Below are positions 2,067 to 50,787 of a stretch of 64,000 bases of DNA, in pieces. Location: positions 1 through 64,000 of IMG/VR virus record IMGVR_UViG_3300050821_008548. One strand, given 5' to 3'. The notes below the pieces were generated by a model. That model had not been told where the DNA came from, did not search any database, and saw nothing but the letters and a program-made list of their open reading frames with translations. Both the position numbers and the translations under genes were made by a program. Numbering within the stretch: the first letter of the stretch is position 1; each line of letters starts with the position of its first letter. Source of the DNA: a virus.

Positions 2067-2407
2067 GTCGCCAGGCCATCCTCATCTCGCGCGGCGAGGC
2101 GGCGGAGCTCTGCGGTGTTTCGGTCGACACGTTCGACGAACGGGTGCGGCCGTACGTGCTGACGAAACGGATCGGGAGACGGGTTCTGATCGAAGAAGGG
2201 AGCTTGCTCGAATGGGTCGGCCATCAAAAGGGCTCAAACTCGAATGGCGCCGCGGCATCGGCTACGCGCGGTTCACGCACGGGCGCCGCGAACACCTTGT
2301 CAGCACCGGCAAAAGAGATCCTGGGGCGGCTCAGGAAGAGGCAGATCGCATCTTCCGGCGCGTCGTCGGAGGCACCGCCGCCAGGCCCTCGTCCACCCGA
2401 GACCTGA
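2063..2407 (+). CDS. Excisionase-like HTH protein
   Basis: This 114-residue protein starts at GTG 2063 by 4-base overlap with the preceding frame. Residues 5-55 (ISRGEAAELCGVSVDTF, then KRIGRRVLIEEGSLLEWV) fit the MerR/excisionase-type HTH_17 fold: a helix-turn-helix followed by a wing ending in a Leu-Glu-Trp helix. Such proteins bind attachment sites and steer integrase towards excision. The remaining Ala/Ser/Pro-rich tail lies over the first 196 bases of the integrase in another frame, so the tail may be dispensable. Confidence 0.7.
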   Translation: MSRQAILISRGEAAELCGVSVDTFDERVRPYVLTKRIGRRVLIEEGSLLEWVGHQKGSNSNGAAASATRGSRTGAANTLSAPAKEILGRLRKRQIASSGASSEAPPPGPRPPET

Positions 2408-3633
2408 AGACCGCGGACTTGCCGGTGCTCTTCGCTGAGTGGCTCGCCTCGCTACAGGGCCAGCTCGACGTCGAGACGCTCCGCACCTACGAGGTCACCT
2501 ACTGCGGCAAGCACTGGCCCGCGCACTACAGCACCCTGGCCGACATGTGCTCGCGGATGGCGCGCGAGCGCTACCGGACCGCGCGCCTCAAGGTGGCCAC
2601 TGCCAAGACGGTGAAGAAGGAGACGTGGTCGCAGGACAAGTTTCTGCGCTGGTGTGAGGAGCGGGAGCTGATTCCCGAGGAGATGCTGCCGAGGCGGCTG
2701 CGGTGGAACAAGGGGACGCTCGGCACCAGGACCGGCCGCCAGCGAGAGCACGCGCGCCAGCTCACCGAGGTCGACGTGGTGACGTTCCTGGGGGAGCTCC
2801 CGGCGTGGCGAGAGGTCGGTGGGCGGGCGGTGAAGAAGAAGCCGTTCCCGGTTCGCGATCGATACCTCTTCGGGTACGAGACGGGCTTCCGCCCGGCGAC
2901 GCTCGACGGGCTCGTATGGGCCGACTGGGTAGACCCGTCCGCGCTACGCGTCCGTGACGAGGTCGACAAGATCCGGTTTGGACGCATTGTCCCCCTCAGC
3001 GTCCCCGCTAAGAACGCCTTGCTGCGGGTCCAGTTCGAGAGCCGCGAGCGCGGTCTGCCCACCGGGCCGCAGGATGCCATCTTCGGCAAGCACCGGAGCG
3101 GCAAGACCATCGCCAAGGCCGCCAAGGCGGCGGGGCTCGACGGCGTCGCCCCCTACGACCTCCGCCATGCGCGAGCCACCCACCTGGCGGACGCTGGTGC
3201 CCCCATCACCGGCATCGGCTACCTCGTCGGACACCGGCAGGCGACCACCACCAACCGCTACCTCCACCAATCCGAGCGCGCGGCGCGTCTGGCCCTCGGT
3301 ACCGACAACTCATCCGGGAATCCGGTACGTACCGCAAACACCGAGGAGAAAACAGGGTGGCCGACGGGCTCTGACCCCGCGACCTCTGGAGCCACAAGGC
3401 AGTTGCCGGCGGCTGGCGACTCGGTAATTACGCCTGATCGGAAACCGGTTTCCGGTACAGACGCCGCCCAAAACCGTTTAGGAGGGCCTGACGCGGAGGT
3501 TGGGCCGGATACTCGCGAGGCGTTCGCGGAGGCGATCCTGGGGCCTCGTGGGGCCACCAAACCGTGGCTCTATGAGGCGGCCTGCGGGCTCGTCTGTCGG
3601 CGCCCGGACGTGGTGACTGGGGGCGCGTCATGA
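2212..3633 (+). CDS. int: Tyrosine-family site-specific integrase
   Basis: This 473-residue protein inserts and excises the phage genome at attP/attB. The N-terminus (MGRPSKGLKLEWRRGIGYAR) resembles an arm-binding domain, residues 70-160 a core-binding SAM-like domain, and 180-360 the catalytic domain. Visible catalytic residues are R227 (TGFRPATLDGL), the Y315-x-x-R318 box (PYDLRHARATH; Tyr replaces the first His, a tolerated variant), H341 (VGHRQATT) and nucleophile Y350 (NRYLHQ). About 120 Thr/Gly/Pro-rich residues follow the nucleophile, which is unusually long, and that stretch carries several palindromes. The ATG overlaps the excisionase frame by 196 nt. Confidence 0.93.
   Translation: MGRPSKGLKLEWRRGIGYARFTHGRREHLVSTGKRDPGAAQEEADRIFRRVVGGTAARPSSTRDLKTADLPVLFAEWLASLQGQLDVETLRTYEVTYCGKHWPAHYSTLADMCSRMARERYRTARLKVATAKTVKKETWSQDKFLRWCEERELIPEEMLPRRLRWNKGTLGTRTGRQREHARQLTEVDVVTFLGELPAWREVGGRAVKKKPFPVRDRYLFGYETGFRPATLDGLVWADWVDPSALRVRDEVDKIRFGRIVPLSVPAKNALLRVQFESRERGLPTGPQDAIFGKHRSGKTIAKAAKAAGLDGVAPYDLRHARATHLADAGAPITGIGYLVGHRQATTTNRYLHQSERAARLALGTDNSSGNPVRTANTEEKTGWPTGSDPATSGATRQLPAAGDSVITPDRKPVSGTDAAQNRLGGPDAEVGPDTREAFAEAILGPRGATKPWLYEAACGLVCRRPDVVTGGAS
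3296..3454. repeat. Cluster of perfect palindromes in the int C-terminal coding region
   Basis: Three perfect palindromes lie within 160 bases: TCGGTACCGA at 3296-3305, CGGTACGTACCG at 3323-3334 and CGGAAACCGGTTTCCG at 3439-3454. The 8-mer TCCGGTAC occurs at 3321 and again at 3451. They sit in the poorly conserved tail codons of the integrase, where DNA-level constraint is easy to accommodate. They could be recombinase or excisionase sites, or operators; that role is inference. Confidence 0.5.
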
Positions 3634-14708: not shown

Positions 14709-14966
14709 ATGCGCGTTTGCAAGCTCAGACTCGACACGGTCCGCAAGGTGTGGCTACACGAGCCCACGGGCCTTCAGGTTACCCACTGGGACGACACTGA
14801 GAGCGGCAACCGTGAGCGCGTGCATGCGGCCGCGGCGAAGATGTTCTCCGAGCGCCTGAACGAGCCGTGCTCGATCGAGTTTCTCGACGCGCCATTCCCG
14901 TCGTCCCAGACGATGACCGAGGTTCGGATGACCAACTTCGGGGGCGCCAGACTTCCCAGCGCCTAG
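14709..14966 (+). CDS. Hypothetical protein upstream of TerL (85 aa)
   Basis: ATG 14709 follows the previous stop by 2 bases. The sequence is short and mixed alpha/beta (KLRLDTVRKVWLHEPTGLQV). It ends 2 bases before the TerL start. No family is recognised. Confidence 0.55.
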   Translation: MRVCKLRLDTVRKVWLHEPTGLQVTHWDDTESGNRERVHAAAAKMFSERLNEPCSIEFLDAPFPSSQTMTEVRMTNFGGARLPSA

Positions 14967-14968
14967 CG

Positions 14969-16294
14969 GTGCAGTTCTCGCTCGAGACGCCCCAGTTCGA
15001 GGCGTACAAGGCGCTGCAGCCCGGCATGACCGTCGGGATTGGCTGGGGCCGCGGTGGCGGTAAGAGCCAGTTCATTCGGCTCATGTGGTACCTGCTGGTC
15101 GCTCAGTGGGACGGGCACTACCGGACGGGCTCCCCGTTCCCTGGCGTCCGTATCGTGCTGCTGATGGCCGACCTCAACGCGGCCAAACGCGTTCACGCGA
15201 GCCTGTTTCTGTCCGAGCTAGCCAACGAGTGGTCGATGCTCCGCGGCAAGACGGACCGCACGACGTGGCGGACCAACTTCCCCGGCGGGTCTTGGATCCA
15301 GTGGGTGAGCGCCGCGCAGGCCCTGTCGATCAAGGGTCTCCGGTGCGACATCATCTGCGTCGATGAGTGTGACCAGATCGACACGTCGGTCATCGACGCG
15401 CGGTGTGGCCCCTGGCTCACCGAGCCGCATTCGCTCGACATCCAGCTCATTGCGGGCACCCCGGAGAAGGGGCGCTACGGCCTGCTGTACCGAACCTGGG
15501 CGCGCGCGAACGGCAAGCTGCTGGACAACGACGGGCACGAGTTCGAGCGCCACGCCTTCAGCCACGCGACCAGCTACGAGTTCCCGCACTTCGTCAGCCG
15601 CAAGAAGCTCGACAAGGAGCGCAAGGAGCTCACGCCGCAGCTCTTCGAGCGCGAGTACCTGTGCAACTGGGACGCGGCCGAGGGCCTGGTTTACCCGCAC
15701 TTCCGCGAAGACTTCCACGTCAGGAAGCCTCCGCCGGACATCGTCTGGCGAGAGCACATCGTGGGCGTCGACTGGGGGTTCGAGGATCCTGCGGTCATCA
15801 ACGTTTACGGGCTGGCGGGCAGCGGTCGAGACGTCACCATCCACCAATTGGCGGAGTGGTATATCGTCCACAAGACGGACTCTCAGATCGCAGAGATCTC
15901 CATCCAGGTCGACACGCTCTACCCGGGCGCTCGCTGGTACGCCGATCCGAGCCGACCTCAGTCGATCGCCGCGGTGAAACACGAGGCCGGCGTCCGCATC
16001 GTGCAAGCCGACAACTCGATCGAGGACGGGGTCGCGACGGTCGCTGACGCGCTTCTGGTGCGAGAGCGAGACGACGGCGAGCGATGGGCCCAGCTGTACA
16101 TCAGCCCCAACTGCACCAACACGATCCGCGAGTTCAGCGAGTACCGGCGCAAGCGGGACCCGAAGAACCGGGAACGCGTGCTCGACGACATCGAGGACAA
16201 GAACAACCACGCCATGGACGCCACCAGATACGCCCTGTTCACGCACTTCGGCGGCCCCGAGCGGCGCCTGGTGACCGGCTACGGCGTCGGCTGA
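14969..16294 (+). CDS. terL: Terminase large subunit (ATPase-nuclease)
   Basis: This 441-residue motor packages phage DNA and cuts it. Walker A is GWGRGGGKS (residues 25-33) and Walker B is IICVDE, followed by the coupling segment LIAGTPEKGRYG. The RNase-H-like nuclease shows its three acidic motifs: VGVDWGF, YADPSRP and NNHAMDATRYAL. GTG 14969 is chosen because it gives a start just before the adenine-binding Gln region (ETPQFEAYKAL). Length and domain order are normal for the family. Confidence 0.93.
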   Translation: MQFSLETPQFEAYKALQPGMTVGIGWGRGGGKSQFIRLMWYLLVAQWDGHYRTGSPFPGVRIVLLMADLNAAKRVHASLFLSELANEWSMLRGKTDRTTWRTNFPGGSWIQWVSAAQALSIKGLRCDIICVDECDQIDTSVIDARCGPWLTEPHSLDIQLIAGTPEKGRYGLLYRTWARANGKLLDNDGHEFERHAFSHATSYEFPHFVSRKKLDKERKELTPQLFEREYLCNWDAAEGLVYPHFREDFHVRKPPPDIVWREHIVGVDWGFEDPAVINVYGLAGSGRDVTIHQLAEWYIVHKTDSQIAEISIQVDTLYPGARWYADPSRPQSIAAVKHEAGVRIVQADNSIEDGVATVADALLVRERDDGERWAQLYISPNCTNTIREFSEYRRKRDPKNRERVLDDIEDKNNHAMDATRYALFTHFGGPERRLVTGYGVG

Positions 16295-18094: not shown

Positions 18095-18576
18095 TCGACT
18101 CCCCTATACTCAAGGAGGCTGGGCGACGACCGCTCCCGCCGTGGCTCTCGATGCTGCACGCGGAAATGGGCAAGCTGGCTGACAAGACGAGCCGGCCGGG
18201 GTGGGATCGCGACGTGGACGTGCTGGATTCCGCGACCCCGGGACAGGTCGGCGCCCTACCGATCGGGGTCCGTCTCTGGTCCGAGGCGCTCATGCTGGCC
18301 ATTGCGGTCTCGATGGAGACTCCCGGACTGCCTGTTCCGGTGCCCGGAGCCGACCCCAAGGGCTTCATCTGGCTTACGTGGTCCCAGGACACCACCGACC
18401 TCGCGCTGCAGCTGCAGCAGGGGCTCTTGGCGAGATACAGCTACGTGTGGGACACGACGCTGTGGGGCGTTCGTTCGCGACACGAGAGCGTTCGCCTGAA
18501 GGACGTAATGGAGGCGCTACAGGCGGCCTTCGGATACCGCGAGTCGGACAGAAGGGCGGTCGCCAATGGCTCGTGA
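18091..18576 (+). CDS. Hypothetical head-region protein (161 aa)
   Basis: GTG 18091 overlaps the portal stop by 4 bases. The mixed sequence (PLPPWLSMLHAEMGKLADK, then PVPVPGADPKGFIWLTWSQD) has no recognised domain. It could be a head accessory protein because of its place between portal and scaffold. Confidence 0.6.
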   Translation: MIDSPILKEAGRRPLPPWLSMLHAEMGKLADKTSRPGWDRDVDVLDSATPGQVGALPIGVRLWSEALMLAIAVSMETPGLPVPVPGADPKGFIWLTWSQDTTDLALQLQQGLLARYSYVWDTTLWGVRSRHESVRLKDVMEALQAAFGYRESDRRAVANGS

Positions 18577-19042
18577 GTTCATCTGCCCCCTGTGCCAGTG
18601 GCACGGCGCGCCGTCGTTCGAGCTCGTCGACGACCCGGGCTCCCAGAAGGGGGGGCGGCTGGCGGCTAAATGCCAGGGCAAGACGTGCTCCTACGTCGAC
18701 CCGTACCTGACGGCCTCCGACTTCAACGAGGGCCGCGACGAGAATGGCGAATCGACGGGCGACGTGGAGCCACTGAGCCAACCCGCAGCCAGGATCGTCC
18801 CGGCCGATCGCAGACTCACCCCCAAGGCGGCACCATCGGCACCGCCGCGGGCCTTCCCAGAACCTTTCGACGTCATCGCCCGCATGCGCGAGCGGCGCGA
18901 CTTCCTGGAGATGGAGATCGCTCGGCTCGAGGCCATGAAACTGGAGCACCGTAAGCTCGTGAAGATGCTGCGGGTCGCGCAGAGCGAAGAGGCGAAGGCC
19001 CAGATCGAGACCAACGTCATGCACATGGGAGTCGCGCAATGA
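18566..19042 (+). CDS. Zinc-ribbon plus coiled-coil protein (158 aa)
   Basis: ATG 18566 overlaps the preceding gene by 11 nt. CPLC...CQGKTC in the first 45 residues forms a ribbon. After a Pro/Ala linker, residues 105-150 are a strong coiled coil (RRDFLEMEIARLEAMKLEHR). Possible roles are head assembly or DNA entry; neither is shown. Confidence 0.62.
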   Translation: MAREFICPLCQWHGAPSFELVDDPGSQKGGRLAAKCQGKTCSYVDPYLTASDFNEGRDENGESTGDVEPLSQPAARIVPADRRLTPKAAPSAPPRAFPEPFDVIARMRERRDFLEMEIARLEAMKLEHRKLVKMLRVAQSEEAKAQIETNVMHMGVAQ

Positions 19043-35842: not shown

Positions 35843-37441
35843 ATGGCGACGCCCAGCCAGCCGCTATACACGTTTGCGGCCAAAAGTAACGTCCAGATCC
35901 GCGACGATATCCTTAGAACGATCAAATCGGGACTTATCGCTCAAGGTATCCCAACTCCGAACATCGGCCCCAATTCAGACTACTACCTGATCGCCACCGC
36001 GCTCGGCAACGAGCTCGCGGTCCCCCAGGCGAACGCAGTCATCCTCGCCGATCAGTTGATGCCCGACACGGCGGCCGGGTCGTTTCTCGATCGCTGGCTG
36101 GCCCTCGTGGGCCTAGCGCGCAACGGGGCGACCAGCAGCTTCGGCAACATCACGATCACGACGTCCGCAAACAGTCTCGTCCCGACCAACGCACAGCTCG
36201 TCGACAACGCGGGTCTGCGCTACCAGGTCACCGTCGGCGGCACGTACGCCAACCAGGCGCAGATCCCCGTCCAGTCGATCGACACGGGCGCCGCCACCGA
36301 TCACGCCAACGGCGACACGCTCACCTGGGTCACGGCCCCGCCGTTCGCCCAGCAGAACGTCACGGTGGGCCTGCCGGGTGGCACCGACGGCCTGACGGGC
36401 GGCGCGGACAGCGAGGTAGGCGTCGACGAGCCGCCGCGCGCACGCCTCTTCGCGCTCCTGCAGGTTCCGCCCAAGGGTGGCAACTCGTCGGACCTGATCC
36501 TCTGGGCCCAGCAGTCGTCGACGAGCGTGCAGGCGGCCTTCGCCTACCCGGCGCTGCTCGGGGCATCGACATCCTTCTTCGCGGTCACCGGTCACCCGCA
36601 GACCTCGCCGCCGCTGACGAGCACGAGCAAGAACCGGGACCTCCCGGGCGCGCTCCTGACCGGAACGATCCTTCCGTATGTGCTGGGCCTGATGCCCGAG
36701 CATTCGCTCTGCGTCGGCACGAGCGTCGCCAACCAGCCGGCGGACGTGGCGATCCAGCTGTCGCTGCCGTCTTCGCCGACCGCGTCGCCTGCGGGGCCGG
36801 GCGGTGGGTGGCTCGACGGGACGCCATGGCCGACGTCGACGACTCCTGGGGTGCCCGGCACGAAGCCCTGCACCGTCATCGCGTTCGCGACCTCCACCCA
36901 GTTCACGGTCAACGCGCCGACGCCGCCTACGAAGTTCGTCAGCCATATCGCGTGGATCTCCCCGCTCACCTGGCAGCTCTACACCGCCACAGTGGTGGAC
37001 GTTTCCGGTAGCACCGGGAACTACACGATCACGATCGACACGCCGATGCCAGGCATTGCGGTCCACAACATCATCTTTCCGCAGTCGGCCAACCAGGCGA
37101 CCTACTTCGCGACGCTGCTCTCGTCCTTCGCGGCCATGGGCCCCGGCGAGTGGCTGCCGCCCGGATCGGCGGGCCTCAAGCGCTCGTTTCGGCATCCGCT
37201 GCCCGCGCTCACGTGGCCGTATGCGCTCGGCCCGACGCAGCTCTCGGCCCTCATCCGCTCCGGCCCCGAGGTGCAGAACGCTCAATTCCTCTTCACGGGC
37301 GACATCACACTCGGCAGCCCGTCGACGTTCAACGTGCCTGTGATCGGCGGCCAGCCGATCCTCGTGGATGGCAGCGGGAACCTGACCACGACGCCCCCCT
37401 CCGTGTTCGTGCCACGCAACATCGGATTTTACGCCTCATGA
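35843..37441 (+). CDS. Baseplate J-like protein (Mu gp47-like)
   Basis: This 532-residue protein starts at ATG 35843. The N-terminus (RDDILRTIKSGLIAQGI, then AVILADQLMPDTAAGSFLDR) matches the J family. LVPTNAQLVDNAGLRYQVTV and GGTDGLTGGADSEVGVDEPP mark the middle beta domains, and PPKGGNSSDLILWAQ the conserved core. An extra beta-rich section lies near residues 300-400. It builds the hexagonal baseplate rim. Confidence 0.88.
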   Translation: MATPSQPLYTFAAKSNVQIRDDILRTIKSGLIAQGIPTPNIGPNSDYYLIATALGNELAVPQANAVILADQLMPDTAAGSFLDRWLALVGLARNGATSSFGNITITTSANSLVPTNAQLVDNAGLRYQVTVGGTYANQAQIPVQSIDTGAATDHANGDTLTWVTAPPFAQQNVTVGLPGGTDGLTGGADSEVGVDEPPRARLFALLQVPPKGGNSSDLILWAQQSSTSVQAAFAYPALLGASTSFFAVTGHPQTSPPLTSTSKNRDLPGALLTGTILPYVLGLMPEHSLCVGTSVANQPADVAIQLSLPSSPTASPAGPGGGWLDGTPWPTSTTPGVPGTKPCTVIAFATSTQFTVNAPTPPTKFVSHIAWISPLTWQLYTATVVDVSGSTGNYTITIDTPMPGIAVHNIIFPQSANQATYFATLLSSFAAMGPGEWLPPGSAGLKRSFRHPLPALTWPYALGPTQLSALIRSGPEVQNAQFLFTGDITLGSPSTFNVPVIGGQPILVDGSGNLTTTPPSVFVPRNIGFYAS

Positions 37442-39773: not shown

Positions 39774-40640
39774 GTGGCTACCCGCACCATCAATTGGCCC
39801 GCGACGGTCTCGGCAGTCCAGGCCATCCTCGACAACTCCAACCCGAGGCCGACGCAGGCGACGATCAACTCCGGCGTTGTTATCCGCAACGCGCTGAGCG
39901 CGGCGGGCGCTACGTACGACACGACGTCTAACGACGGGATCCTCAACTTCACCCCCTACGCGGGTGCGCCCCTCACACCGAACGGTCTGCCGCAGCCGGG
40001 GAGCGTCCAGGCGTGGGCAGCGGCCGCCGCACCCGTGTGGGTTGAGACGGACCGCGTCGCGCGGGCGATCTACAAGCTCACGCCGCCGCCAAGCAACGTC
40101 ATGCTCGCGGCCTTCGGGATGCCGGGCGTCACGCCCTGGCGAGCGAAGACACTCTACGGGTCCGGGCCCCCGCCTTCGGCCGTCACCCCGACGCCGGCGA
40201 ACGGCTTCGGCTACATCTTCGCGAGCGTGAACGGGGACCTCGTGGCGCAGAGCGCGGCGTTCCAGCCGCCGTTTCTGACGACGCTCGGGTCTCTTACGAC
40301 AGAGACTCCGCCGGCTCCGGGCGCATTTCCGGCGGTCTGGCAGTGCGTCGCTGCCGTCACTGGCTCGAGCGGGGGCCAGCCCGTGGCGCTGCCGTGGGAC
40401 GTCACACAGGCCTCGCTCATCAGCCTCTTTTCGCGCGCCGCACTCGCGTCAGTCGCCGCGGCTAGCAACCCCGGGCTCGTCTCGCTCATCACCAACCAGT
40501 TCACCGCGCTCAACGCCGTCCTGCTGACGCAGCCGACGCCGAACCCGTCGGCGGACGCGGCGTCACTCTCGGCCATCAACGCGCTGAACGTCGCGATTGC
40601 GAACGCGAACGCGTGGATCGCGGCGGCGGCGATTCAGTAG
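39774..40640 (+). CDS. Putative tail protein (288 aa)
   Basis: GTG 39774 starts 3 bases after the previous stop. The sequence is Ala/Pro/Thr-rich with a beta-sandwich-like centre and a helical Ala/Asn C-terminus (AINALNVAIANANAWIAAA). It ends next to a lipoprotein gene on the other strand, with only one base between the two stop codons. Confidence 0.58.
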   Translation: MATRTINWPATVSAVQAILDNSNPRPTQATINSGVVIRNALSAAGATYDTTSNDGILNFTPYAGAPLTPNGLPQPGSVQAWAAAAAPVWVETDRVARAIYKLTPPPSNVMLAAFGMPGVTPWRAKTLYGSGPPPSAVTPTPANGFGYIFASVNGDLVAQSAAFQPPFLTTLGSLTTETPPAPGAFPAVWQCVAAVTGSSGGQPVALPWDVTQASLISLFSRAALASVAAASNPGLVSLITNQFTALNAVLLTQPTPNPSADAASLSAINALNVAIANANAWIAAAAIQ

Positions 40641-40641
40641 C

Positions 40642-41568
40642 TCAATTCGTCTGCACGCAAAGTGGGAAGTCGCCGAGCTGGCCGGGCGCATACGAGAAGG
40701 CACCAGTCCCGTCCGACGTGTATATGGCGACGGGGGAGAACGAGAACGAGGACGTATCGATCTCAGGCTCGCAAACCGAGACCGTTCTGCCGCCAACGAC
40801 AACAGGCGGCCCAATCAAAAGGGTCTGCGCCTCAGACGTAGTGGGCGGGCGCCACGCATGCCCCCCGAGCCGAGAGCATGCGCACTGGGCTGCCGGGTTG
40901 ACGTTGTCGACCGGACAGTCTGCGGGCCCCCAAACAAGCCCGGTGGTCGAGTCCGTAACAGTCGCCGCTGTGCCGCTCGCCGTTATGGATCCGGTGATGG
41001 TTCCATCGGGCAAAAGCGTTGTATCGCAGCCGCTGGCCGTCTGGACGCACCCATAGCTGGTCTCAGTGGACTTCGTATACCGCGGCAGGTTATGGCAGCA
41101 CGAGGCAGCGGCGCTCCCCTGCATCCACTGCCACTGTTGCGAACCATCACACTGGTAGAATCGGAAGTCGTCGGCGCACTTGGTGGCGCCGGTCAAGCAC
41201 TCAGGCGGGGGGCCGGATTCGACGAGAGTCGTCACGGCGTCTGTCGCCTCGGCCTCGGCAGGCGGATCAGAGGGCGACGCATCCGTCGCCGGATCCACGG
41301 GCGCCCCCGCATCCTCTCCGCACGTGTGGCACGTAATCGTCCCCCCGCACTCGTCGTTCCAAGTCGCGCACGAGGGCCCGACCTGAGCGCATGTGATCGG
41401 ACTGCACGCCGGCGGGAGCCCCGCGTCGGGCGCCGGTTTCGGGTCCGCTGAGACGGCCGATGGAGCAGTCGCCGTTGGCGCGGGCCCCGGCTGACCATCG
41501 ATCGTGGTCGACGCGGCCCCGCCGCATCCGAGCACCACCACCGCCACCGCTGTCATCCACGCTCGCAT
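40642..41568 (-). CDS. Secreted Cys-rich lipoprotein with DUF1566-like domain (moron)
   Basis: This 308-residue protein is the only leftward gene among the rightward late genes. MRAWMTAVAVVVLGC is a signal peptide with lipobox VLGC (lipidated C15). The ATG at 41568 has a GAGGGG site 9 nt upstream. A Pro/Ala linker and a Cys-rich region (GGTITCHTC) follow. The C-terminal 130 residues have the DUF1566 pattern: VTDSTTGLVWGPADCP, GGHAWRPPTTSEAQTL and a final LCVQ. This architecture is typical of myxobacterial surface lipoproteins. Expression from the prophage could alter the lysogen surface. Confidence 0.8.
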   Translation of the reverse strand: MRAWMTAVAVVVLGCGGAASTTIDGQPGPAPTATAPSAVSADPKPAPDAGLPPACSPITCAQVGPSCATWNDECGGTITCHTCGEDAGAPVDPATDASPSDPPAEAEATDAVTTLVESGPPPECLTGATKCADDFRFYQCDGSQQWQWMQGSAAASCCHNLPRYTKSTETSYGCVQTASGCDTTLLPDGTITGSITASGTAATVTDSTTGLVWGPADCPVDNVNPAAQCACSRLGGHAWRPPTTSEAQTLLIGPPVVVGGRTVSVCEPEIDTSSFSFSPVAIYTSDGTGAFSYAPGQLGDFPLCVQTN

Positions 41569-41637
41569 TTGGTCGATCCCCTCACCAGAAACGTAGCGCA
41601 TCCGTAGGCGCGCGCGAGGTGAACGCCTGAACACCCA

Positions 41638-42417
41638 ATGACGACACCGAACCCCGCCTGCACGGTGAACTCCCTGTCGCCGCCGCAGAATGTGACGGCT
41701 GGGGCGACGGTATCCTTCGGGCTCGTATCGACGGCGGGGGCGAATTTCTGGTCGGTCTCGGTCACTGGGACCGACGAACTCAATACCGTTGCCGCTGTAC
41801 AGGCCACGGTCACCCTCGACCAGACCCACAAGACCGGGACCTTCACGGCGCCCGCGGGCCTCGGGAGCGCCGTCCAGCTGACGAGCGTCGTGGGCATCGC
41901 AGGCATGGGCCTCGACGCCAACGGCGCGTCGGTCAAGGCGTTCACCACGACCTTCAAGGTCAACGTCCTTTGCGCGTCCGGTCTCGAGGTTTTCCACACC
42001 AACGAGACGATCGAGCAGTCCGCCCCCTTCGGCTGGCTCGCAGTCGTCAATCCGGCGATCCGAAACGCCAGTGGCGGCGGCGGCGGACCCGCTACGGCCG
42101 TCGTCTGGACTCGCGTCTCGACGACGCCACACCAGCTCGTCGCGGGCGAAGAGGCGCTCGTCGACGTCTCCAGCCTCAACATCGTCTGCCGCACCCCGGT
42201 CGCTCCGGCCGACGCGGCTGAATTCGCGGTGACCGTCATCGACGGTCTTGGCGGCCACTCGCTCACCATCGATCCCAACGCCCTCGGCTCGTCGCTCAAC
42301 GATCCGAACGGAGTACCCGGGACGATCCTCGCAGCGAATACGACGCTGACGATTCCCTACAAGGGTCGTTTCAAGTGGAAATACGACAACGCGCACACCC
42401 GCTGGCTCCTTGTATGA
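41638..42417 (+). CDS. Putative tail fibre/adhesin (259 aa)
   Basis: ATG 41638 resumes the rightward fibre cluster after the lipoprotein gene; its ribosome site is weak. The protein is beta-rich with VTAGATVSFGLVSTAGANFW and a C-terminal TLTIPYKGRFKWKYDNAHTR that resembles capping segments of fibre needles. The stop overlaps the next ATG by 4 bases. Confidence 0.6.
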   Translation: MTTPNPACTVNSLSPPQNVTAGATVSFGLVSTAGANFWSVSVTGTDELNTVAAVQATVTLDQTHKTGTFTAPAGLGSAVQLTSVVGIAGMGLDANGASVKAFTTTFKVNVLCASGLEVFHTNETIEQSAPFGWLAVVNPAIRNASGGGGGPATAVVWTRVSTTPHQLVAGEEALVDVSSLNIVCRTPVAPADAAEFAVTVIDGLGGHSLTIDPNALGSSLNDPNGVPGTILAANTTLTIPYKGRFKWKYDNAHTRWLLV

Positions 42418-44744
42418 GGCGGCTGTCGCTCACCCTCCTGCCGCTCGCCCTCTGGGCCTGCGTCGGCTTCACCACGTCCGGCGTTCCGGACGCGAGCTCG
42501 CCGGCAGGGATTCCTGCGGCCCCGACGGCCGCGGTGGGCGTCGTGGTGTCGCCACCGGCGCCCACGCACAACGTCGGCGCGAGCTACCCGGCCATCCCCA
42601 TCCCCGCGGCCCAGGCCGAGGGGGACATCCTGGCCTACCACTCGGGAGCCTGGAACGGGCTCGCCCCAGGCACCAGCGGCTTCGTGCTCACGAGCACCGG
42701 CACGTCCTCGCTCCCCTCTTGGCAGGCGGCGGGCGCGGGCGCTTCGGTCACGGGCTCCGGTCTCTGGCACTCGACGAGTGGCACGCTCGACGCGGCGGCG
42801 TCGAAGGGGACGGCGGCGCAGATCGTCGTCACCAACGCGGGCGCGACCGACACGCCTTGGGTGACCGTCTCCGGCGACTGTACGCTCGCGGCCTCGGGCG
42901 CCGTCACGTGCACTAAGGTCAACGGCGCGAGCTACGGCGCGGGCGGCGCGCTGACGACGGGCAACAGCGCCTACGTCTCCGGGGCCAGCGCGACGACCTA
43001 CTCCGCCCTCAATCTCGCCGGCGGCTCCGGCTGGGTCACGGGCGTCCTACCGACCGCGAACCAGGCGAATCAAGCGCTCGTCGGAGACGTCACCGGCAAC
43101 ACCGGGGCGGACACAGTCGTCGCGCTCCAGGGTTTCGGCGTCGCGACGTCTACCCCGACGAGTAATCAGGTACTGACGTGGAACTCGGGCACCTCAAAGT
43201 GGACGGCCACGACGCCCGCGAGCGCCCCCTCCGTCACGGGCTCCGGTCTCTGGCACTCGACCTCGGGGACGCTCGATAGCGCGGCGTCCCACGGCACGGC
43301 GGGGCAGATCTACGTCAGCAATGCGGGCGGCACCGACGCCGCCTGGGTGACGATGAGCGGCGCCGCGACGCTCTCGTCATCGGGCGCGCTGACGCTCGGA
43401 AGCATCTCGCTCTCGGGCGACGTCACCGGGACGAACAGCGCCACGGTTGTCTCCGCGATCTCCGGCAACTCGCCGATCTCGATCGCGCCGAACAACTTTC
43501 AGTGGGGCGCGGGCGCGACGTCGCCGACGCTCCTGGAGGCGCAGCAGGCCAACGGTAGCAACCCCGCCAACTTCACGATCCAACCGCAAGCTCCGGGCGC
43601 GGGCGCCGTCACGACGCCCACGGGGACGCCGGGCTCGCTCGTCGTCGCGCTCTCCGCGCCCGTATCGACGGGAAACGAGGCCTCGTTTCAGGTCACCCGC
43701 AGCGGCGCAAGCCAGACGGTCATGTCTGTCACCGGCGGCTCGGGGAACGCGAACTATGTCCTGAACCTCGGCGCCCAGCTCCTCGCCGAATACAACGCGA
43801 CTAGCGGCGCGACCGACCTTTCGGGCTCCGGCGGGTCGCTTTACTTCCAGATGTCCGGCACCCGCCTTGGGTTGTGGACCGGTAGTGGGCTGCAGCTCTT
43901 CCCGGTGTCCAGCGCCGCCAACTTCGGCGGCGGCTCCGGGGTCCTGGGGATCAACAACGCGACGACCAACTCGACATCCACGATCACTAACGGTCTGACG
44001 CTCTCCTCGGACGGCGGCAAGCTCGAGGTTGACGCTCCCGCGATCCAGTTTCCAAAGTTCGTAGGGAACCCGAAGTTCACGCAGCTGGCGCAGACGACCG
44101 ACACGGCGACGAACGCGCTGCAGATCTCCGCGCAAGCAGCTTTCGCCAGCGCGTCGACGAACGTCACGGGCGGCAACGTGACGGTCACCGCCGGCGCCGG
44201 GACGACGAACGCGAACGGCGGCTCAGCATCCCTCACCGCGGGAGACAGTCTCACGACCATCCAGGTCTCGCCGAACGCCATCACCGGGTCTTCCGGGAAC
44301 GGCTCGGAAAAGATCGTCTACAACGGCGCGGGGTCCATCAATTCGCAAACCGCCGTCGTCGAGAAGTTCTCCACGTACGGCCAAACTAACTCCGGCGGCC
44401 AGCTCCTCACGGCGACTTCCGGTCGCACGCTCGCGACTGGCCATAGCGTATTCGTTCACTGCCACGGCGTCGCCAGGACGACCGCCGCGGGCGGCAGCAG
44501 CTTGAGCGTCGGCGACACCTTCTCGGAGAACGCCGACTTCACCCTAAAGAACGTCAGCGGTACGATCGCGCAGGTCTCGACGCAGACGGTCGTGTCGAAG
44601 ATCTTGGATGCGAGCTTCAACGCCGCGAGCGTGATCGGGTGGAATAACAATGGCACGGTGAATTGCTTTCTCGCGATCACCGCGAACAGCGGCGGCGGCG
44701 CGACGCTCGACGACAGCATCTGGGTCACGGCCGAATACAACTGA
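42414..44744 (+). CDS. Large fibre-like protein with a lipoprotein signal (776 aa)
   Basis: The ATG overlaps the preceding stop by 4 bases, which fixes the start. The product opens with MRRLSLTLLPLALWAC: basic n-region, hydrophobic core and a lipobox-like LWAC (C16). After a Pro/Ala stretch it becomes a typical tail-fibre shaft (GDILAYHSGAWNGLAPGTSG) with two copies of a module starting SGLWHSTSGTLD, then long Gly/Ser/Thr beta-solenoid-like sequence. A virion fibre with an export and lipidation signal is abnormal, so it may be displayed on the host surface instead. Confidence 0.78.
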   Translation: MRRLSLTLLPLALWACVGFTTSGVPDASSPAGIPAAPTAAVGVVVSPPAPTHNVGASYPAIPIPAAQAEGDILAYHSGAWNGLAPGTSGFVLTSTGTSSLPSWQAAGAGASVTGSGLWHSTSGTLDAAASKGTAAQIVVTNAGATDTPWVTVSGDCTLAASGAVTCTKVNGASYGAGGALTTGNSAYVSGASATTYSALNLAGGSGWVTGVLPTANQANQALVGDVTGNTGADTVVALQGFGVATSTPTSNQVLTWNSGTSKWTATTPASAPSVTGSGLWHSTSGTLDSAASHGTAGQIYVSNAGGTDAAWVTMSGAATLSSSGALTLGSISLSGDVTGTNSATVVSAISGNSPISIAPNNFQWGAGATSPTLLEAQQANGSNPANFTIQPQAPGAGAVTTPTGTPGSLVVALSAPVSTGNEASFQVTRSGASQTVMSVTGGSGNANYVLNLGAQLLAEYNATSGATDLSGSGGSLYFQMSGTRLGLWTGSGLQLFPVSSAANFGGGSGVLGINNATTNSTSTITNGLTLSSDGGKLEVDAPAIQFPKFVGNPKFTQLAQTTDTATNALQISAQAAFASASTNVTGGNVTVTAGAGTTNANGGSASLTAGDSLTTIQVSPNAITGSSGNGSEKIVYNGAGSINSQTAVVEKFSTYGQTNSGGQLLTATSGRTLATGHSVFVHCHGVARTTAAGGSSLSVGDTFSENADFTLKNVSGTIAQVSTQTVVSKILDASFNAASVIGWNNNGTVNCFLAITANSGGGATLDDSIWVTAEYN
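42747..43261 (+). repeat. 29-bp direct repeat pair in the fibre-like gene
   Basis: The same 29 bases occur at 42747-42775 and 43233-43261, exactly 486 bases (162 codons) apart and in frame. They open two similar protein modules (VTGSGLWHSTSGTLD). Recombination between them would delete or duplicate one module cleanly. Confidence 0.85.
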
Positions 44745-45118
44745 TGCGTCCCGCTCAGCTCAACCTGACGGTCTACCAGTACGCGAGCTTCACGCGCTCG
44801 TTTACTTGGAAGTCCGGATCGCCACCGCTCCCCGTAGACCTGACGGGCTGCGCCGCGCGCTTCATGGCGCGCGTGAACCACTCGGACGCCTCGCCACTCA
44901 TCAGCCTGACCACCACGCTCAACGCGCAGGGCGTCATCGTCGTTCAGCCGTCGCTCTCGCAGCTCGGGTACATCAACGTGGCGCTCCTCAGCGCGTTCAC
45001 CGGGACCCTGCCCACCAACGTCGCGCCGTTCTTTCAGCTCTTCGTCGACTTCGCGAACGGGACTACGACGACTCTCGTCACGGGTCGGATCATCATCCTG
45101 CCAGAGGACGTTCATTAG
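44744..45118 (+). CDS. Putative fibre-associated protein (124 aa)
   Basis: ATG 44744 is coupled by TGATG. The product has the pattern of small phage BppU/fibre N-terminal-like proteins: PAQLNLTVYQYASFTRSFTW, then LTGCAARFMARVNHSD. It is beta-rich and may cap or attach fibres. The resemblance is by pattern only. Confidence 0.58.
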   Translation: MRPAQLNLTVYQYASFTRSFTWKSGSPPLPVDLTGCAARFMARVNHSDASPLISLTTTLNAQGVIVVQPSLSQLGYINVALLSAFTGTLPTNVAPFFQLFVDFANGTTTTLVTGRIIILPEDVH

Positions 45119-46822
45119 ATGACCGACGTCATCGAAGTATCCGAGCAGGGACCGGCCGGACCGCCGGGGCCCTTCGGCTCGACGAACACGGCGGCGAACT
45201 TCACGATGCCGCCGTCCGACGGCGTGACGACCGCCACCGTGCAGTTCTTGACGACGGTGTTTTTCGCGCCCGGCATGTCGCTCTTCATCGCGAGCGCTGG
45301 CTACCTCGTCGTCGCGGCCGTCATCGACCAGACGCACGCGACGCTGGTCAACAACGGCGTCAACAGCAACACGGTCCCAGGGAACACGATCGCGAGCGGC
45401 TCGTCGGTGGTCCCCGGCGGTCCGACCTTACCCGTCCCGATCCTCGGTACTGCCCTCGTCGGGAATAACTCCCGGGTCAACGAGCTGTCTTTCGACTGGA
45501 TCAGCGTGCCGTCCGGACAGACGGTCACGATCGCGACGCTGCCGCAGCCGGCCATCGCCTTCCACGAGACCGTCGCGATGTCGGCGTTCATCGAGGTCGT
45601 CAATCTCGCCGGGACCGCGCACGGCCGGATCGCTCGGATGATCCAGGTCCAGAACGTCTCCGGCGTCATCACGACGCCGAACGGGGGCACGAGCGATTCG
45701 AACATCACCCCGGACACCGCCAACGCGATGGCGACATCGCTGACGGGAGTTGTCGGCGCCATCGTCATCTCGGCCGCGACGCTGCTCGTTCAAGTCACCA
45801 ACCCCACGGGCGCGCAGATCTGGGCCCGGTGCGACGTCAGCGTGAGCCGGGGACTCTTGCCCGGAACTGGGCCGATCCCCGTCGTCTCTTCGACGTCCGT
45901 CGCGAGCGGGCCGGGGGCGGGAGGGACCAACGGGGCGCTTACCGGGCTGCACTTTACGGGCGCGTCCTCGGTCACCCTGTTTGGCGTCGCCGCAACGTTC
46001 AGTGTCATCAGCGACACGCAGATCAACTTCACGTCCGGCCCCTTCTTTGGCGTCCCAGGCGCGGGCGACATCGTCGTCACGAACCTCAATGGCCCCGGGT
46101 CACTCGTCGGCGGCTGGACGTACACGTCTACCCAACTCACGCCCCTCACCATCTTCGGCGCGAGCCTGCAAGGCTGGTATCCGAACAGCAATATCCAGCA
46201 CTCCGGCGCGGCGATCACCGGGTGGAACGACGGGACGTCGAACGCGGAAAACCTCACCGTAGGATCGGGCCTCGCCACAGGCTACGTCGCGAGCTCCACA
46301 CACATCACGCCGAACGGTCCGGCCGTCACGTTCAACGGATCGTCGGACTATCTCACGAAAGCGAGCTTCGTCTGGGGTGCCGCGACGAACCCGAATACGT
46401 TCGTCTATATCATCTGTCGATCCACCGCGACGGCCGGTCAGTACGTCGGCAAGGCGGGCGACGGCATCGACTTCGTCATCTCGGCGAACAACCCAGTGCT
46501 CGGCGGGCCACTCGGCGCCCTCACCAACTCGGCTACGGTACAGAACAACCTTCAAATCGTCTGGGCTTACTGGGATGGCCTGTCGGTGGGTGGAAGCAAC
46601 GTCGAGTTCGTCACTGTGAACAACGGCACGCCAGCGACTCGCTCGGGGACGAACGGGATCAATTGCGTGAAGACGGCGACGCTCAACCTCGGCGGGACGA
46701 CGCAGCACTTCGGCGGCGAGATCTACGAGATGGGCGTCGTCGAGGCGCCGACGGGCGGACCTACGGCCAACCAGCTCTCGCTGCTCCACTCTTACGCGCA
46801 GATCACGTACGGGACCCCGTGA
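45119..46822 (+). CDS. Tail fibre with collagen-like, IPT and lectin-like domains
   Basis: This 567-residue protein abuts the preceding stop. A short collagen-like GPAGPPGP follows the N-terminus. A beta-rich shaft leads to an IPT/TIG-like region near residues 255-330. The C-terminal 220 residues (LTIFGASLQGWYPNSN, then GIDFVISANN and FGGEIYEMGVVEAPTGG) resemble a concanavalin/LamG sandwich. It probably binds host surface sugar. Confidence 0.7.
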   Translation: MTDVIEVSEQGPAGPPGPFGSTNTAANFTMPPSDGVTTATVQFLTTVFFAPGMSLFIASAGYLVVAAVIDQTHATLVNNGVNSNTVPGNTIASGSSVVPGGPTLPVPILGTALVGNNSRVNELSFDWISVPSGQTVTIATLPQPAIAFHETVAMSAFIEVVNLAGTAHGRIARMIQVQNVSGVITTPNGGTSDSNITPDTANAMATSLTGVVGAIVISAATLLVQVTNPTGAQIWARCDVSVSRGLLPGTGPIPVVSSTSVASGPGAGGTNGALTGLHFTGASSVTLFGVAATFSVISDTQINFTSGPFFGVPGAGDIVVTNLNGPGSLVGGWTYTSTQLTPLTIFGASLQGWYPNSNIQHSGAAITGWNDGTSNAENLTVGSGLATGYVASSTHITPNGPAVTFNGSSDYLTKASFVWGAATNPNTFVYIICRSTATAGQYVGKAGDGIDFVISANNPVLGGPLGALTNSATVQNNLQIVWAYWDGLSVGGSNVEFVTVNNGTPATRSGTNGINCVKTATLNLGGTTQHFGGEIYEMGVVEAPTGGPTANQLSLLHSYAQITYGTP

Positions 46823-48309
46823 GGTCCACGCGATTCGGCAACCTCGGTCCCGCGGGTGAGTGGGGCCTCAATCACGTCATCAGCACGGGTCAGTCGCTCA
46901 GCGTGAGCACCGAGAGCAACGTCTCGATCTCGACGCAGCCCTACAACAACAAGATGCTGCACGACGGATCGGCTACGTACGACATCACGCTCCCGAACGC
47001 GGCAACGCTCTCGCTGCAGCCGCTCGTTGGGCCGCAGAGGACTACGGGGCCAGGTCAGACCGCGTACCCGGCGAACCTCGAGGGGAGCGACGCGGTCGAC
47101 ATCAGCTTCGCCAACGAGGTCACGCGTATCGCCATCGCGAACGACTACAACGATTACCGGATCGCGACCAGCACCGTCGGCGTGGGCGGGCAGCCGATGT
47201 CGGTCATCCAGAAGGGCGGCAGCGGGACGTCCTACGCTGCGAGTCTCTATGAGTGCCGCGCGATCAAGCGGCTCGCGGGATTGGCGGGTCTCACCTTCGG
47301 TACGCGCGCCGTGATGCTTCGCCACGGCGAGACCGACGACGAGAACCAGAACCTCAGCTACGCGACGCAGCTCGCGACGCTCGCGTCGAACTACCAGACG
47401 GACCTGCAGACCATCACCGGCCAGACGGTGGGCGTCTACCTCTTCGGGACGCAGTGCAATCAGAACCCGCAGTCGTTTCACGTCGGCGAGAACGTCACGG
47501 CCCTGGCCTTCTGGGCCGCCGCGGTGGCCAACCCGGGATTGGTGGTCCTGGTCGGCCCCCAGTACCAGTTCGCGTATAGCCCCTTCACCTTCGAGCACAT
47601 GCAGAACTACGGGCCGCTCGGCGAGCTGCACGCCAAGGTCTTCTGGATCATTGAGCGCACCGGCACATGGACGCCGCTCTGGCCTACGTCCGTCGTGCGC
47701 GTCGGAACGGCCGTCACGATTACCTTCAACGTTCCGGTCGGACCGCTCGTCTTCGATGGCGTTGCGTCTCCTCCGCACGCTGGCGGCACCCCGTGGAACG
47801 CGTGGTGGGGCGGCGCCAAGGGATTCGAGGCGTACGACCGCCTGCTTACGGTCTCGAGCGCGACCAACGCATCGCCGATCGTTATCGGCTTCACAACGCC
47901 GCACGGCCTGAACACGGGAGACCCGTACGCGCTGACGGCCGTCGTGGGGAACACGGCGACCAACGGCGTCTGGTCCGCGGTGACCTTCGTGGACTCGACC
48001 CATGTGAGCCTCAACGGCTCTACAGGCAACGGCGCGTATACGTCGGGAGGCATCGGCTTCTCGCCGATCGGCGTCGGTGCGCCTTCGATCTCCGGCAATC
48101 AAGTCAGCTTCACCATGGCGCGCTCCCCCGTCGGGACACCAACGATCGCCTACGCGCACCACTCCGATCGCCTGTACGGCGCGGGCCTAAACACCGGCGG
48201 GTTTCCGCTCGGCCGCTGCGGACTGCTTCGGGACTCCGATCCGTGGGTGAGCGGATCGGGATTTCAACAGTTCAACTGGTGCATCGAGTTTGCGCAGGCG
48301 GCGCCATGA
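46819..48309 (+). CDS. SGNH/sialate-O-acetylesterase-like tail enzyme
   Basis: This 496-residue protein starts at GTG 46819 by 4-base overlap. HVISTGQSLSVSTES supplies the block-I GQS motif with the nucleophile Ser near residue 26. AVMLRHGETDDENQNLSYATQ is the HGExD block used by carbohydrate esterases, and FTFEHMQNYGPLGELH a likely catalytic His region. The last 200 residues are beta-rich. It would remove acyl groups from host polysaccharide during adsorption. Confidence 0.72.
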   Translation: MRSTRFGNLGPAGEWGLNHVISTGQSLSVSTESNVSISTQPYNNKMLHDGSATYDITLPNAATLSLQPLVGPQRTTGPGQTAYPANLEGSDAVDISFANEVTRIAIANDYNDYRIATSTVGVGGQPMSVIQKGGSGTSYAASLYECRAIKRLAGLAGLTFGTRAVMLRHGETDDENQNLSYATQLATLASNYQTDLQTITGQTVGVYLFGTQCNQNPQSFHVGENVTALAFWAAAVANPGLVVLVGPQYQFAYSPFTFEHMQNYGPLGELHAKVFWIIERTGTWTPLWPTSVVRVGTAVTITFNVPVGPLVFDGVASPPHAGGTPWNAWWGGAKGFEAYDRLLTVSSATNASPIVIGFTTPHGLNTGDPYALTAVVGNTATNGVWSAVTFVDSTHVSLNGSTGNGAYTSGGIGFSPIGVGAPSISGNQVSFTMARSPVGTPTIAYAHHSDRLYGAGLNTGGFPLGRCGLLRDSDPWVSGSGFQQFNWCIEFAQAAP

Positions 48310-49308: not shown

Positions 49309-49497
49309 ATGTTGTCGAATATCAAGCTCCCCCATTGGGCCATGGTCCTCGTGTCTCTCGTGAGCATTGTGCTCGCGTGGGGCCTCAAGGAGAACGCGTC
49401 GGGCGAGCTCGTCCTGCCGGCCGTTGTCCTTGGGATCGTTCCGATCGTTCAGACCCTGCTCGGGTTCTTCTCGCCGAGCGTCACGGGGGCGAAGTGA
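49309..49497 (+). CDS. Holin-like protein (62 aa)
   Basis: The ATG has an AGGAG site 10 nt upstream. Two membrane helices (WAMVLVSLVSIVLAWGL and LVLPAVVLGIVPIVQTLLGF) are joined by a short polar turn, which is class II holin topology. It lies directly upstream of a candidate lysis peptidase. Holins open the inner membrane at the end of infection. Confidence 0.68.
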   Translation: MLSNIKLPHWAMVLVSLVSIVLAWGLKENASGELVLPAVVLGIVPIVQTLLGFFSPSVTGAK

Positions 49498-49781
49498 TCC
49501 GCTCCTGGCCTGCCGCCGTGGCCCTCTGCGGCCTGCTGGCTCTCGTTGACGTCGGCTGTCCCCAAGCCGTTCCCTTCGTCGCGCCCTCGGCCGCCCTGGC
49601 CGCCTGCGTGGCCGCCGACGCCCTCAAGGGCGACTCCGTCGCCCAGATGGCCACCGACTGCGGCTCGGATGCCCTCAGCGTCATCATGGCGCTCCTGGCC
49701 TCCGAGGACGCCGCGGTGAAGACCAGTCCCGCTTACCACGAGGCCGAGGCGACGCGCAAAGCCATGAAGGCGGCGCCTTGA
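49494..49781 (+). CDS. Exported small protein, possible lipoprotein (95 aa)
   Basis: GTG 49494 overlaps the holin-like stop by 4 bases. The N-terminus (SWPAAVALCGLLALVDVGC) is an export signal with a poor lipobox (DVGC). The mature part is Ala-rich with Cys residues that could pair. It could be an o-spanin-like protein or an exported lysis accessory. Confidence 0.55.
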   Translation: MIRSWPAAVALCGLLALVDVGCPQAVPFVAPSAALAACVAADALKGDSVAQMATDCGSDALSVIMALLASEDAAVKTSPAYHEAEATRKAMKAAP

Positions 49782-50584
49782 GCTTCTCCAGGGGCCTGCA
49801 CCGGTCGCCGCCTGAGAAGGTTGCGCACCGGCTCGGGGCGCATCTGTTGGGCCTCGGCGCCGTTCCCAAGGGGGCGGCGAGTCTGACCCCGTGTCAACGG
49901 ATGGACCAAGGCCAGAGCTCCACCTGCCATGCCCACAGCGCCGCTGGGGCCGTCTGGACGGCCTGCAACGCGAAGGGTCGGCCGATGACCTTCGTCCCCT
50001 CCCCGAGGGAGATTGCGTCTACGACATACGCGGACGTCCGGGCTGCGGCGACGCCACCGGGGCAGCCGCTGCCGCCTCTGCAGGACCAGGGGGCCGACCT
50101 GCAGGACGACGCCACGGCGATGGCCAAGTGGGGCGTCTGCCCCATGGGCGCGACCGTTGGGCGCTTCAGCGACGTCCCAGACGACAACGGCTACGGCTTC
50201 CCTGAGCCAGTCGTCTCAGAGCTCCAGATTGCGGGGCAGGACCTGATCGGCGGCGAGTATCAGATTCCCGTCGACGACAGCGCCCCGACAACCGTAGCCC
50301 TCTGCCTGGACGCAGGGATCCCCATCTGGCTCGGAACTTTCGTCGGGTCGGCATTCGAGAACCTCGGCGCGACGGGCATCGCCCAGCCGCCCGACGAGAG
50401 CGACCCGAAGGGCGGCGGCCATGCGATGTACATTTCGGGCTACCGGACCGCGGCCGACGGCTCGTTCGAGTTTCGCGTCGAGAACTCCTGGGGCTCTGGC
50501 TGGGCCGACGGCGGCGCCGTGTGGGCCTCCTCGGCGTGGCTGAAGGCTTGTTGGAGTTTGTGGCCCATGGCGGTGTGCCCGTGA
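49778..50584 (+). CDS. Papain-like (C1-type) cysteine peptidase
   Basis: TTG 49778 overlaps the preceding stop by 4 bases. In this 268-residue protein, Q44 and C50 (DQGQSSTCHAHSAAGAV) keep the papain Gln-to-Cys spacing. GGGHAMYISGY gives the catalytic His near 214 and VENSWGSGWADGG the Asn near 235. There is no signal peptide, so release would need the adjacent holin. It probably acts in lysis or on host surface proteins. Confidence 0.82.
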   Translation: MSFSRGLHRSPPEKVAHRLGAHLLGLGAVPKGAASLTPCQRMDQGQSSTCHAHSAAGAVWTACNAKGRPMTFVPSPREIASTTYADVRAAATPPGQPLPPLQDQGADLQDDATAMAKWGVCPMGATVGRFSDVPDDNGYGFPEPVVSELQIAGQDLIGGEYQIPVDDSAPTTVALCLDAGIPIWLGTFVGSAFENLGATGIAQPPDESDPKGGGHAMYISGYRTAADGSFEFRVENSWGSGWADGGAVWASSAWLKACWSLWPMAVCP

Positions 50585-50787
50585 TCCGCCTCCGCTGGCT
50601 CCTGCTCGCCATTCTCGCCGGATGCGAGGGCGCGGCCGCCTGCAAGCCGCCACTGCCGGGCCCCGTCGCGCCCGACGCCACACCGGATGGCGGATGTCAG
50701 GTCGACGACGCAATCACGAAAGCACGGCTGATTCGCAACCCGGACGGGACGCCGCTGGTCATCCACTGCGATGCGGGTGCCCCATGA
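50581..50787 (+). CDS. Small lipoprotein (68 aa)
   Basis: GTG 50581 overlaps the peptidase stop by 4 bases. MIRLRWLLLAILAGC is a lipoprotein signal with lipobox LAGC, followed by four more Cys residues in a Pro-rich mature part. It is a candidate o-spanin or surface lipoprotein. Confidence 0.65.
   Translation: MIRLRWLLLAILAGCEGAAACKPPLPGPVAPDATPDGGCQVDDAITKARLIRNPDGTPLVIHCDAGAP

Follow-up and report, generated by a model that had tools for sequence, protein, structure and literature searches.

Antisense lipoprotein genes and export signals on fibre-region proteins in the tail operons of a group of uncultured phages

The tail operon and its antisense lipoprotein gene

We analysed a stretch of 64,000 nucleotides (nt), the window, which comprises positions 1-64,000 of the virus record IMGVR_UViG_3300050821_008548 (65.6 kb, 67% G+C). 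Within its rightward tail operon lies a leftward gene for a predicted lipoprotein of 308 amino acids (aa), followed by genes for a 259-aa protein with an Ig-like domain and for a 776-aa fibre-like protein, P0001, which opens with a predicted export signal (Table 1). The record encodes a terminase and a GH25 lysozyme; the phage is probably contractile-tailed and, because a tyrosine integrase is present, probably temperate.

Table 1. Positions of the genes and other features of the window that are discussed in the text (SD, Shine-Dalgarno sequence)
Feature	Position	Strand	Remarks
Tyrosine integrase	2212..3633	+	PF00589, 59.9 bits
Baseplate J homologue	35843..37441	+	PF04865, 63.9 bits; query for collecting relatives
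288-aa tail-operon gene	39774..40640	+	Directly upstream of the slot; convergent with the lipoprotein gene, stop codons 1 base apart
308-aa predicted lipoprotein, antisense within tail operon	40642..41568	-	SD GAGGGG; lipobox VVLGC; Cys-rich; weak C-terminal Lcl_C/DUF1566 match
69-bp divergent gap between lipoprotein and Ig-like fibre genes	41569..41637	.	Holds the lipoprotein SD GAGGGG
259-aa protein with conserved Ig-like N-terminal fibre domain	41638..42417	+	Alignments with relatives
P0001, 776-aa fibre-like protein	42414..44744	+	N-terminal export/lipobox-like signal MRRLSLTLLPLALWAC
124-aa protein, phrog_1084/LtfC-like beta-sandwich, next fibre-region gene	44744..45118	+	Profile searches run on 44735-45118
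567-aa fibre-region protein without export signal	45119..46822	+	Weak TIG match
496-aa tail-fibre/SASA esterase-like protein without export signal	46819..48309	+	phrog_4201 tail fiber, E 7.2e-48 (on 46891-48309); PF03629 sub-threshold

The first-pass annotation had described the leftward gene as a Cys-rich lipoprotein interrupting the rightward operon. Its coordinates hold, with a lipobox VVLGC, and we correct the start to ATG 41568, which has GAGGGG shortly upstream and gives the N-terminus MRAWMTAVAVVVLGC. This N-terminus matches the signal-peptidase-II pattern of a positive n-region, a hydrophobic h-region, and a lipobox of the form [LVI][ASTVI][GAS]C. A longer open reading frame on the minus strand (GTG 42396, 584 aa) was rejected as the lipoprotein gene, the plausible start being ATG 41568. 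Past the lipobox follows a linker rich in Asp, Ala, and Pro, and the protein has 19 Cys in total. A DUF1566-like domain had also been claimed: the C-terminus does match Lcl_C/DUF1566 (PF07603; E = 6.5e-5), but at 23.6 bits the match fails the Pfam cut-off of 34.9. The composition of the gene is foreign to the phage, with a G+C content at third codon positions (GC3) of 0.76 compared with ~0.87 in tail genes and a per-codon score under phage codon use of 0.01 compared with ~0.2. Between the two stop codons, at 40640 and 40642, there is no space for a terminator.

Searches in public phages gave no useful homologues of the lipoprotein, and its sole match in IMG/VR is a near-identical contig. Two Pirellula matches in the GTDB genomes cover 19 residues each and were set aside as spurious, and an AlphaFold model made with no alignment was discarded (predicted local distance difference test, pLDDT, 41). 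Neither the lipoprotein nor P0001 matches a PDB sequence. Identification with a SitA toxin was rejected, there being the weak Lcl_C match alone, no toxin domain, and tail genes as neighbours. A role as Rz1-like outer-membrane spanin was rejected on the length of 308 aa, the antisense orientation, the place in the tail operon, and the better spanin-like candidates beginning at 49494 and 50560. These candidates, both small, rightward, and lipobox-like, are encoded in the lysis region (49494-49781 and 50560-50787) and are possible outer-membrane spanins; the former has a homologue in the related contig L022 (21092-21490, 38.8% identity).

The Ig-like protein and the N-terminus of P0001

The 259-aa protein is modelled by AlphaFold as a beta-sandwich (pLDDT 82.6). 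A fold search with its Ig-like domain returned nothing under E = 0.001, so that "adaptor" remains a mere label for it. Its stop codon TGA lies within an ATGA at which P0001 starts.

P0001 begins with the MRR n-region, 12-residue h-region, and lipobox L-W-A-C contained in the longer N-terminal stretch MRRLSLTLLPLALWACVGF. The first 30 codons have a GC3 of 0.97, and the start is therefore credible and the signal stretch is translated in this frame. The first-pass annotation had taken this N-terminus for a lipoprotein signal fixed by a 4-base overlap with the upstream gene. The ATGA overlap and the codon use do fix the start. An N-terminal export signal is well supported; lipidation is less so, since the lipobox has Trp at position -2. 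The gene arrangement recurs unchanged in another, near-identical assembly that differs by one mismatch in 22 kb.

The body of P0001 has repeats in common with two contigs of jumbo-phage size (L004 and L005) and with L006 (49-59% identity, partial). Inside the gene, a direct repeat of ~122 bp with 81% identity (42744-42865 and 43230-43351) duplicates the module VTGSGLWHSTSGTLD. No match to P0001 was found in INPHARED. The result that the first-pass annotation named as refuting its proposal, homologous fibres whose start is later and conserved, was not seen, although no close homologue of the P0001 N-terminus was found either.

Antisense lipoproteins in related phages

We searched with baseplate J and with tail proteins encoded near it and collected relatives with baseplate J identities to the window from ~57% down to ~25%, which gave 41 distinct contigs including the window (labelled L with a number). 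Close scans queried with lipoprotein or fibre returned only the near-identical contig and the repeat-sharing contigs, and a further profile scan (A7) gave no additional contigs. An integrase is present in 10 of 32 related records. Gene content at the 41 loci was compared with one simple in-house gene caller, some of the uncultured contigs being cut; the lipobox rules are likewise simple and were adjusted during the analysis, and all counts below depend on the rule and on the caller.

There is a strong bias in the orientation of lipobox genes. When both strands are scanned with an automatic lipobox rule that permits alternative starts, 8 of 18 antisense genes (about 100 aa or longer) and 1 of 583 sense genes match (P ~ 1e-12), the single sense match being P0001 itself. 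By eye we count 12 lipoproteins among the 18 antisense genes, adding those of L017, L025, L073, and L079, which miss the rule through an n-region without Lys or Arg, an h-region with Glu or Gln, or a cut contig. The antisense gene of L017 was called only by a model self-trained on its contig, and the antisense lipoprotein of L043 needs a start upstream of the called one.

An antisense lipoprotein gene occupies the slot immediately ahead of the Ig-like fibre gene in the window, L012, L017, L019, L025, and L079 (at the contig end); in L022 a gene for a membrane protein does so. Elsewhere in the tail operon, antisense lipoprotein genes lie after baseplate J (L011), just before it (L043 and L059), further upstream (L049 and L073), or just after the Ig-like gene (L086). 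Many relatives have an empty slot, with the flanking genes ~3-45 nt apart, for example, L013, L016, L020, L038, L040, L055, L066, L076, L077, L086, L087, and L090; many of these empty-slot relatives are without a homologue of the gene at 39774. L011 does have this homologue, ~65 nt from the fibre gene and with nothing between, and is thus an empty site.

The cargo varies too. In L019 (15073-15591, minus strand) the slot holds a predicted lipoprotein metzincin (Peptidase_M10, PF00413, 36.9 bits) with the motif HEIGHGLGLGH; the antisense gene of L049 encodes DUF7481 and that of the window an Lcl_C-like domain. Among the Cys-rich antisense proteins, mutual similarity is weak. Empty sites and swapped predicted cargo are the pattern of a moron slot. 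The consistent antisense orientation fits expression from a prophage against the direction of late transcription, and sigma-70-like promoters are found upstream of the antisense genes of L025 (9 of 12 matches) and L012 (8 of 12).

Away from the slot, L054 has a lipoprotein-like gene immediately 3′ of the integrase (18302-18634).

Export signals on fibre-region proteins in related phages

Apart from the window, four contigs (L022, L025, L073, and L082) have large fibre-region proteins with predicted export signals. The 41 loci contain 338 sense genes of 250 aa or more. A lipobox N-terminus is found in none of the 281 head and tail genes among them and in 4 of the 57 genes past the conserved tail landmarks, P0001 included (P = 7e-4, Fisher's test).

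L022 repeats the two-gene layout of the window, with a 16-nt overlap: a 259-aa Ig-like protein is followed by two proteins, L022_f1 and L022_f2, with the N-termini MAQRLAPLITLLCASC and MKLRYFAILALAAC. Their bodies match tail or tail-fibre PHROGs (phrog_9648, E = 9e-4; phrog_863, E = 3e-8). L022_f1 has a hydrophobic N-terminal stretch; it fails the large-gene lipobox rule but passes an earlier version of the rule. In L073, one protein (L073_f2) combines a lipobox with a GDSL esterase domain (38.2 bits) and a sub-threshold LamG match, and another (L073_f1) a membrane anchor with TIG. L025 encodes a 794-aa lipobox protein with no family match. In L082 the Ig-like domain is preceded in frame by the membrane segment VRRLAISLAALLGLLGGLWIVFGAIPC and a linker, and it lacks a separate start codon at the domain border. 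A full-text literature search for tail fibres with lipobox signals, in which few matches were opened, returned spanin cases only.

Since both the antisense lipoproteins and the export signals recur in related phages, neither signal of the window is a one-off or a mis-called start, and this part of the first-pass annotation is borne out. Its proposal that lipoprotein and fibre form one module is not: L011, L012, L017, L019, and L043 have an antisense lipoprotein and, in the part seen, no fibre with an export signal, and L082 has a signal on a fibre domain with no antisense gene seen.

In the fibre regions we also observed an 882-aa gene of L053 (12260-14908) that stands in the fibre position just after the Ig-like gene but runs against the tail operon, as does the gene that follows it (14925-15329); fibre inversion or switching is possible. 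In the lysis region of the L073 phage (contig L094, reversed), approximately five more small genes with a lipobox are found downstream of those for the fibres.

Other features of the window

Two tandem repeats stand apart from the tail operon. A 12-bp unit (TCGACTCGGCCG) encoding SAVD or SAVR is repeated 16 times at positions 1-192, at the start of the open reading frame 3-932, and a 48-bp unit occurs in 2.8 copies with 96% matches within a coding region (7216-7350).

Discussion

The recurrence of antisense lipoprotein genes and of export signals in this virus family suggests, as far as sequence can tell, a change of the infected cell's surface. The explanation that we favour, with a confidence somewhat short of even, is that the region contains two cell-surface devices, separate but adjacent: a lipoprotein moron and an exported fibre-like protein acting on a receptor. 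The antisense gene would be a lysogenic-conversion lipoprotein moron, expressed from the prophage by a weak promoter of its own; its product would go to the envelope of the lysogen and alter the surface, by receptor masking or by some other surface function. P0001 would be made with the late operon, its translation coupled to that of the Ig-like fibre gene, and would then be exported. It would probably stay anchored in the infected cell's envelope and there bind or modify the receptor, so that sister phages would not re-adsorb to the same cell or to debris. Candidates for the virion side would be the 259-aa protein and the 496-aa esterase-like protein, which lacks a signal and is a possible virion fibre. 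The two products are likely to be made at different times, because the antisense gene is probably off during expression of the late operon and the fibre gene is transcribed with it. A bolder version, which we hold to be unlikely, is that these phages make a membrane-tethered receptor-binding fibre, lipid-anchored on the infected cell and occupying or destroying the receptor in cis, which together with the swappable lipoprotein would form a surface-conversion region assembled from tail-fibre parts.

Several observations weigh against the explanation that we favour. The Trp at -2 in the P0001 lipobox is atypical, and PROSITE PS51257, which does not admit Trp there, would reject it. P0001 matches no Pfam or PHROGs profile, those of tail fibres included, so that it is called a fibre because of its position and of repeats common to other viral contigs. 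The PHROG and Pfam searches also gave no homology to known exclusion proteins, and no sigma-70 consensus promoter was recognised where we looked for one before the lipoprotein gene of the window. Finally, both fibre-looking proteins after the Ig-like gene of L022 carry signals, and a separate unsignalled virion fibre is not obvious in that phage.

Other accounts of the lipoprotein must be set beside these points. It is rather unlikely that the moron benefits the lysogen outside exclusion, through adhesion, a protease, or social or predatory traits, and that P0001 is a fibre gene with an acquired host lipoprotein N-terminus and thus an exported adhesin. The heterogeneity of the cargo, from the metzincin protease to Cys-rich, DUF7481, and Lcl_C-like proteins, agrees with such benefits, as does the naming of Lcl_C for an adhesin, and the long linkers rich in Asp, Ala, and Pro presumably resemble those of myxobacterial lipoproteins, which is a lead only. 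The place beside receptor-binding genes, however, parallels known exclusion lipoproteins, although position alone is weak evidence. That the antisense lipoprotein is a mere open frame in GC-rich DNA and no gene at all, as its low codon score under phage usage and its omission by the gene caller might suggest, we consider hardly credible given the good start with an SD sequence, the lipobox, the Cys-rich body, the E-value of the Lcl_C match, a 997-bp gap without a plausible sense gene, and the equivalent antisense lipoproteins in relatives.

For P0001, the hydrophobic N-terminus could instead be a baseplate docking peptide on a normal virion fibre, with the lipoprotein a separate moron. Membership in the late operon, the ATGA coupling to a fibre gene, the fibre-like repeats, and the Trp, atypical for a lipobox, speak for docking, which we nevertheless regard as quite improbable: the large sense head and tail genes of the 41 loci offer no such N-terminus, the equivalents in L022, L025, and L073 have an n-region, an h-region, and a Cys or else a membrane anchor, and the fused fibres of L011, L012, and L017 are without such a segment after the Ig-like domain. 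These fused fibres belong to a group (L011, L012, L017, L025, and L080) in which the Ig-like domain opens one long fibre, and the 259-aa and 776-aa proteins might by analogy be a single fibre, joined by a programmed frameshift or split by an assembly error, with the signal internal. The junction, CTC CTT GTA TGA, is not a slippery heptamer, while ATGA is a usual coupling signal; the two near-identical assemblies agree, L022 repeats the two-gene layout, and the 259-aa protein has a short cap-like end (...RWLLV) that is seen at the chain ends of relatives too. A single frameshifted fibre was rejected on the junction, the assemblies, and the layout of L022, and we give the one-fibre account very little credence.

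Lipoprotein morons near receptor-binding genes have so far been known phage by phage. Here antisense lipoprotein genes with differing cargo occur within the tail operons of a whole group of uncultured phages and provide a list of candidate surface-conversion proteins. Should the fibre-like proteins truly be exported and anchored, these phages would reuse receptor-binding parts as blockers or enzymes of the cell surface, and the annotation of fibre genes would change, since not all of them would encode virion proteins.

Comparison with known systems

With its recurrence in relatives, the antisense lipoprotein adds a new example to a known kind, that of Bor, Cor, Llp, and Ltp. Phage lipoprotein genes of the Llp/Cor type lie beside receptor-binding or tail fibre genes, and Llp is reported to act on its receptor in the outer membrane and to keep out further phage (PMC9586334, PMC7556043); in T5 the llp gene adjoins the receptor-binding gene, and such exclusion proteins stop adsorption to infected cells and to debris (PMC9586334). 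These precedents make receptor modulation a fair guess for the window. T5 Llp and the Cor proteins of T1, phi80, and N15 share with our case the placement of a lipoprotein gene next to a receptor-binding or tail fibre gene, but they are small, whereas the lipoproteins here have ~130-308 aa, are antisense, and for the most part bear no relation to one another across phages; no homology to Llp or Cor was seen. Lambda Bor, like other antisense lipoprotein morons, is encoded opposite to the late operon of a temperate phage and is expressed in the lysogen. Bor lies near the lysis region, unlike the present slot, which is within the tail operon and has a cargo that varies among relatives. Ltp of TP-J34, found in Streptococcus thermophilus phages, is a temperate-phage surface lipoprotein of moron character (PMC3952083), but it belongs to a lysogeny module and a Gram-positive host, whereas the slot described here is in the tail operon. 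Myxobacterial SitA proteins, from the prophage element Mx-alpha, are prophage-borne outer-membrane lipoproteins reported to be transferred between cells (PMC5562445); they have a nuclease toxin domain and an immunity partner, neither of which was recognised here, and the host is not shown to be myxobacterial.

What is unusual in the finding is that fibre-like proteins are predicted to be exported. In their shared fibre repeats, glycine-rich domain, TIG, and GDSL/SASA esterase domains after the baseplate genes, these loci resemble the fibre regions of contractile-tailed phages. Virion fibres, however, normally have no secretion signal, and here at least five proteins in the window, L022, L025, and L073 have a predicted one, and in L082 the Ig-like domain does as well. 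A fibre with a lipid tag would be new.

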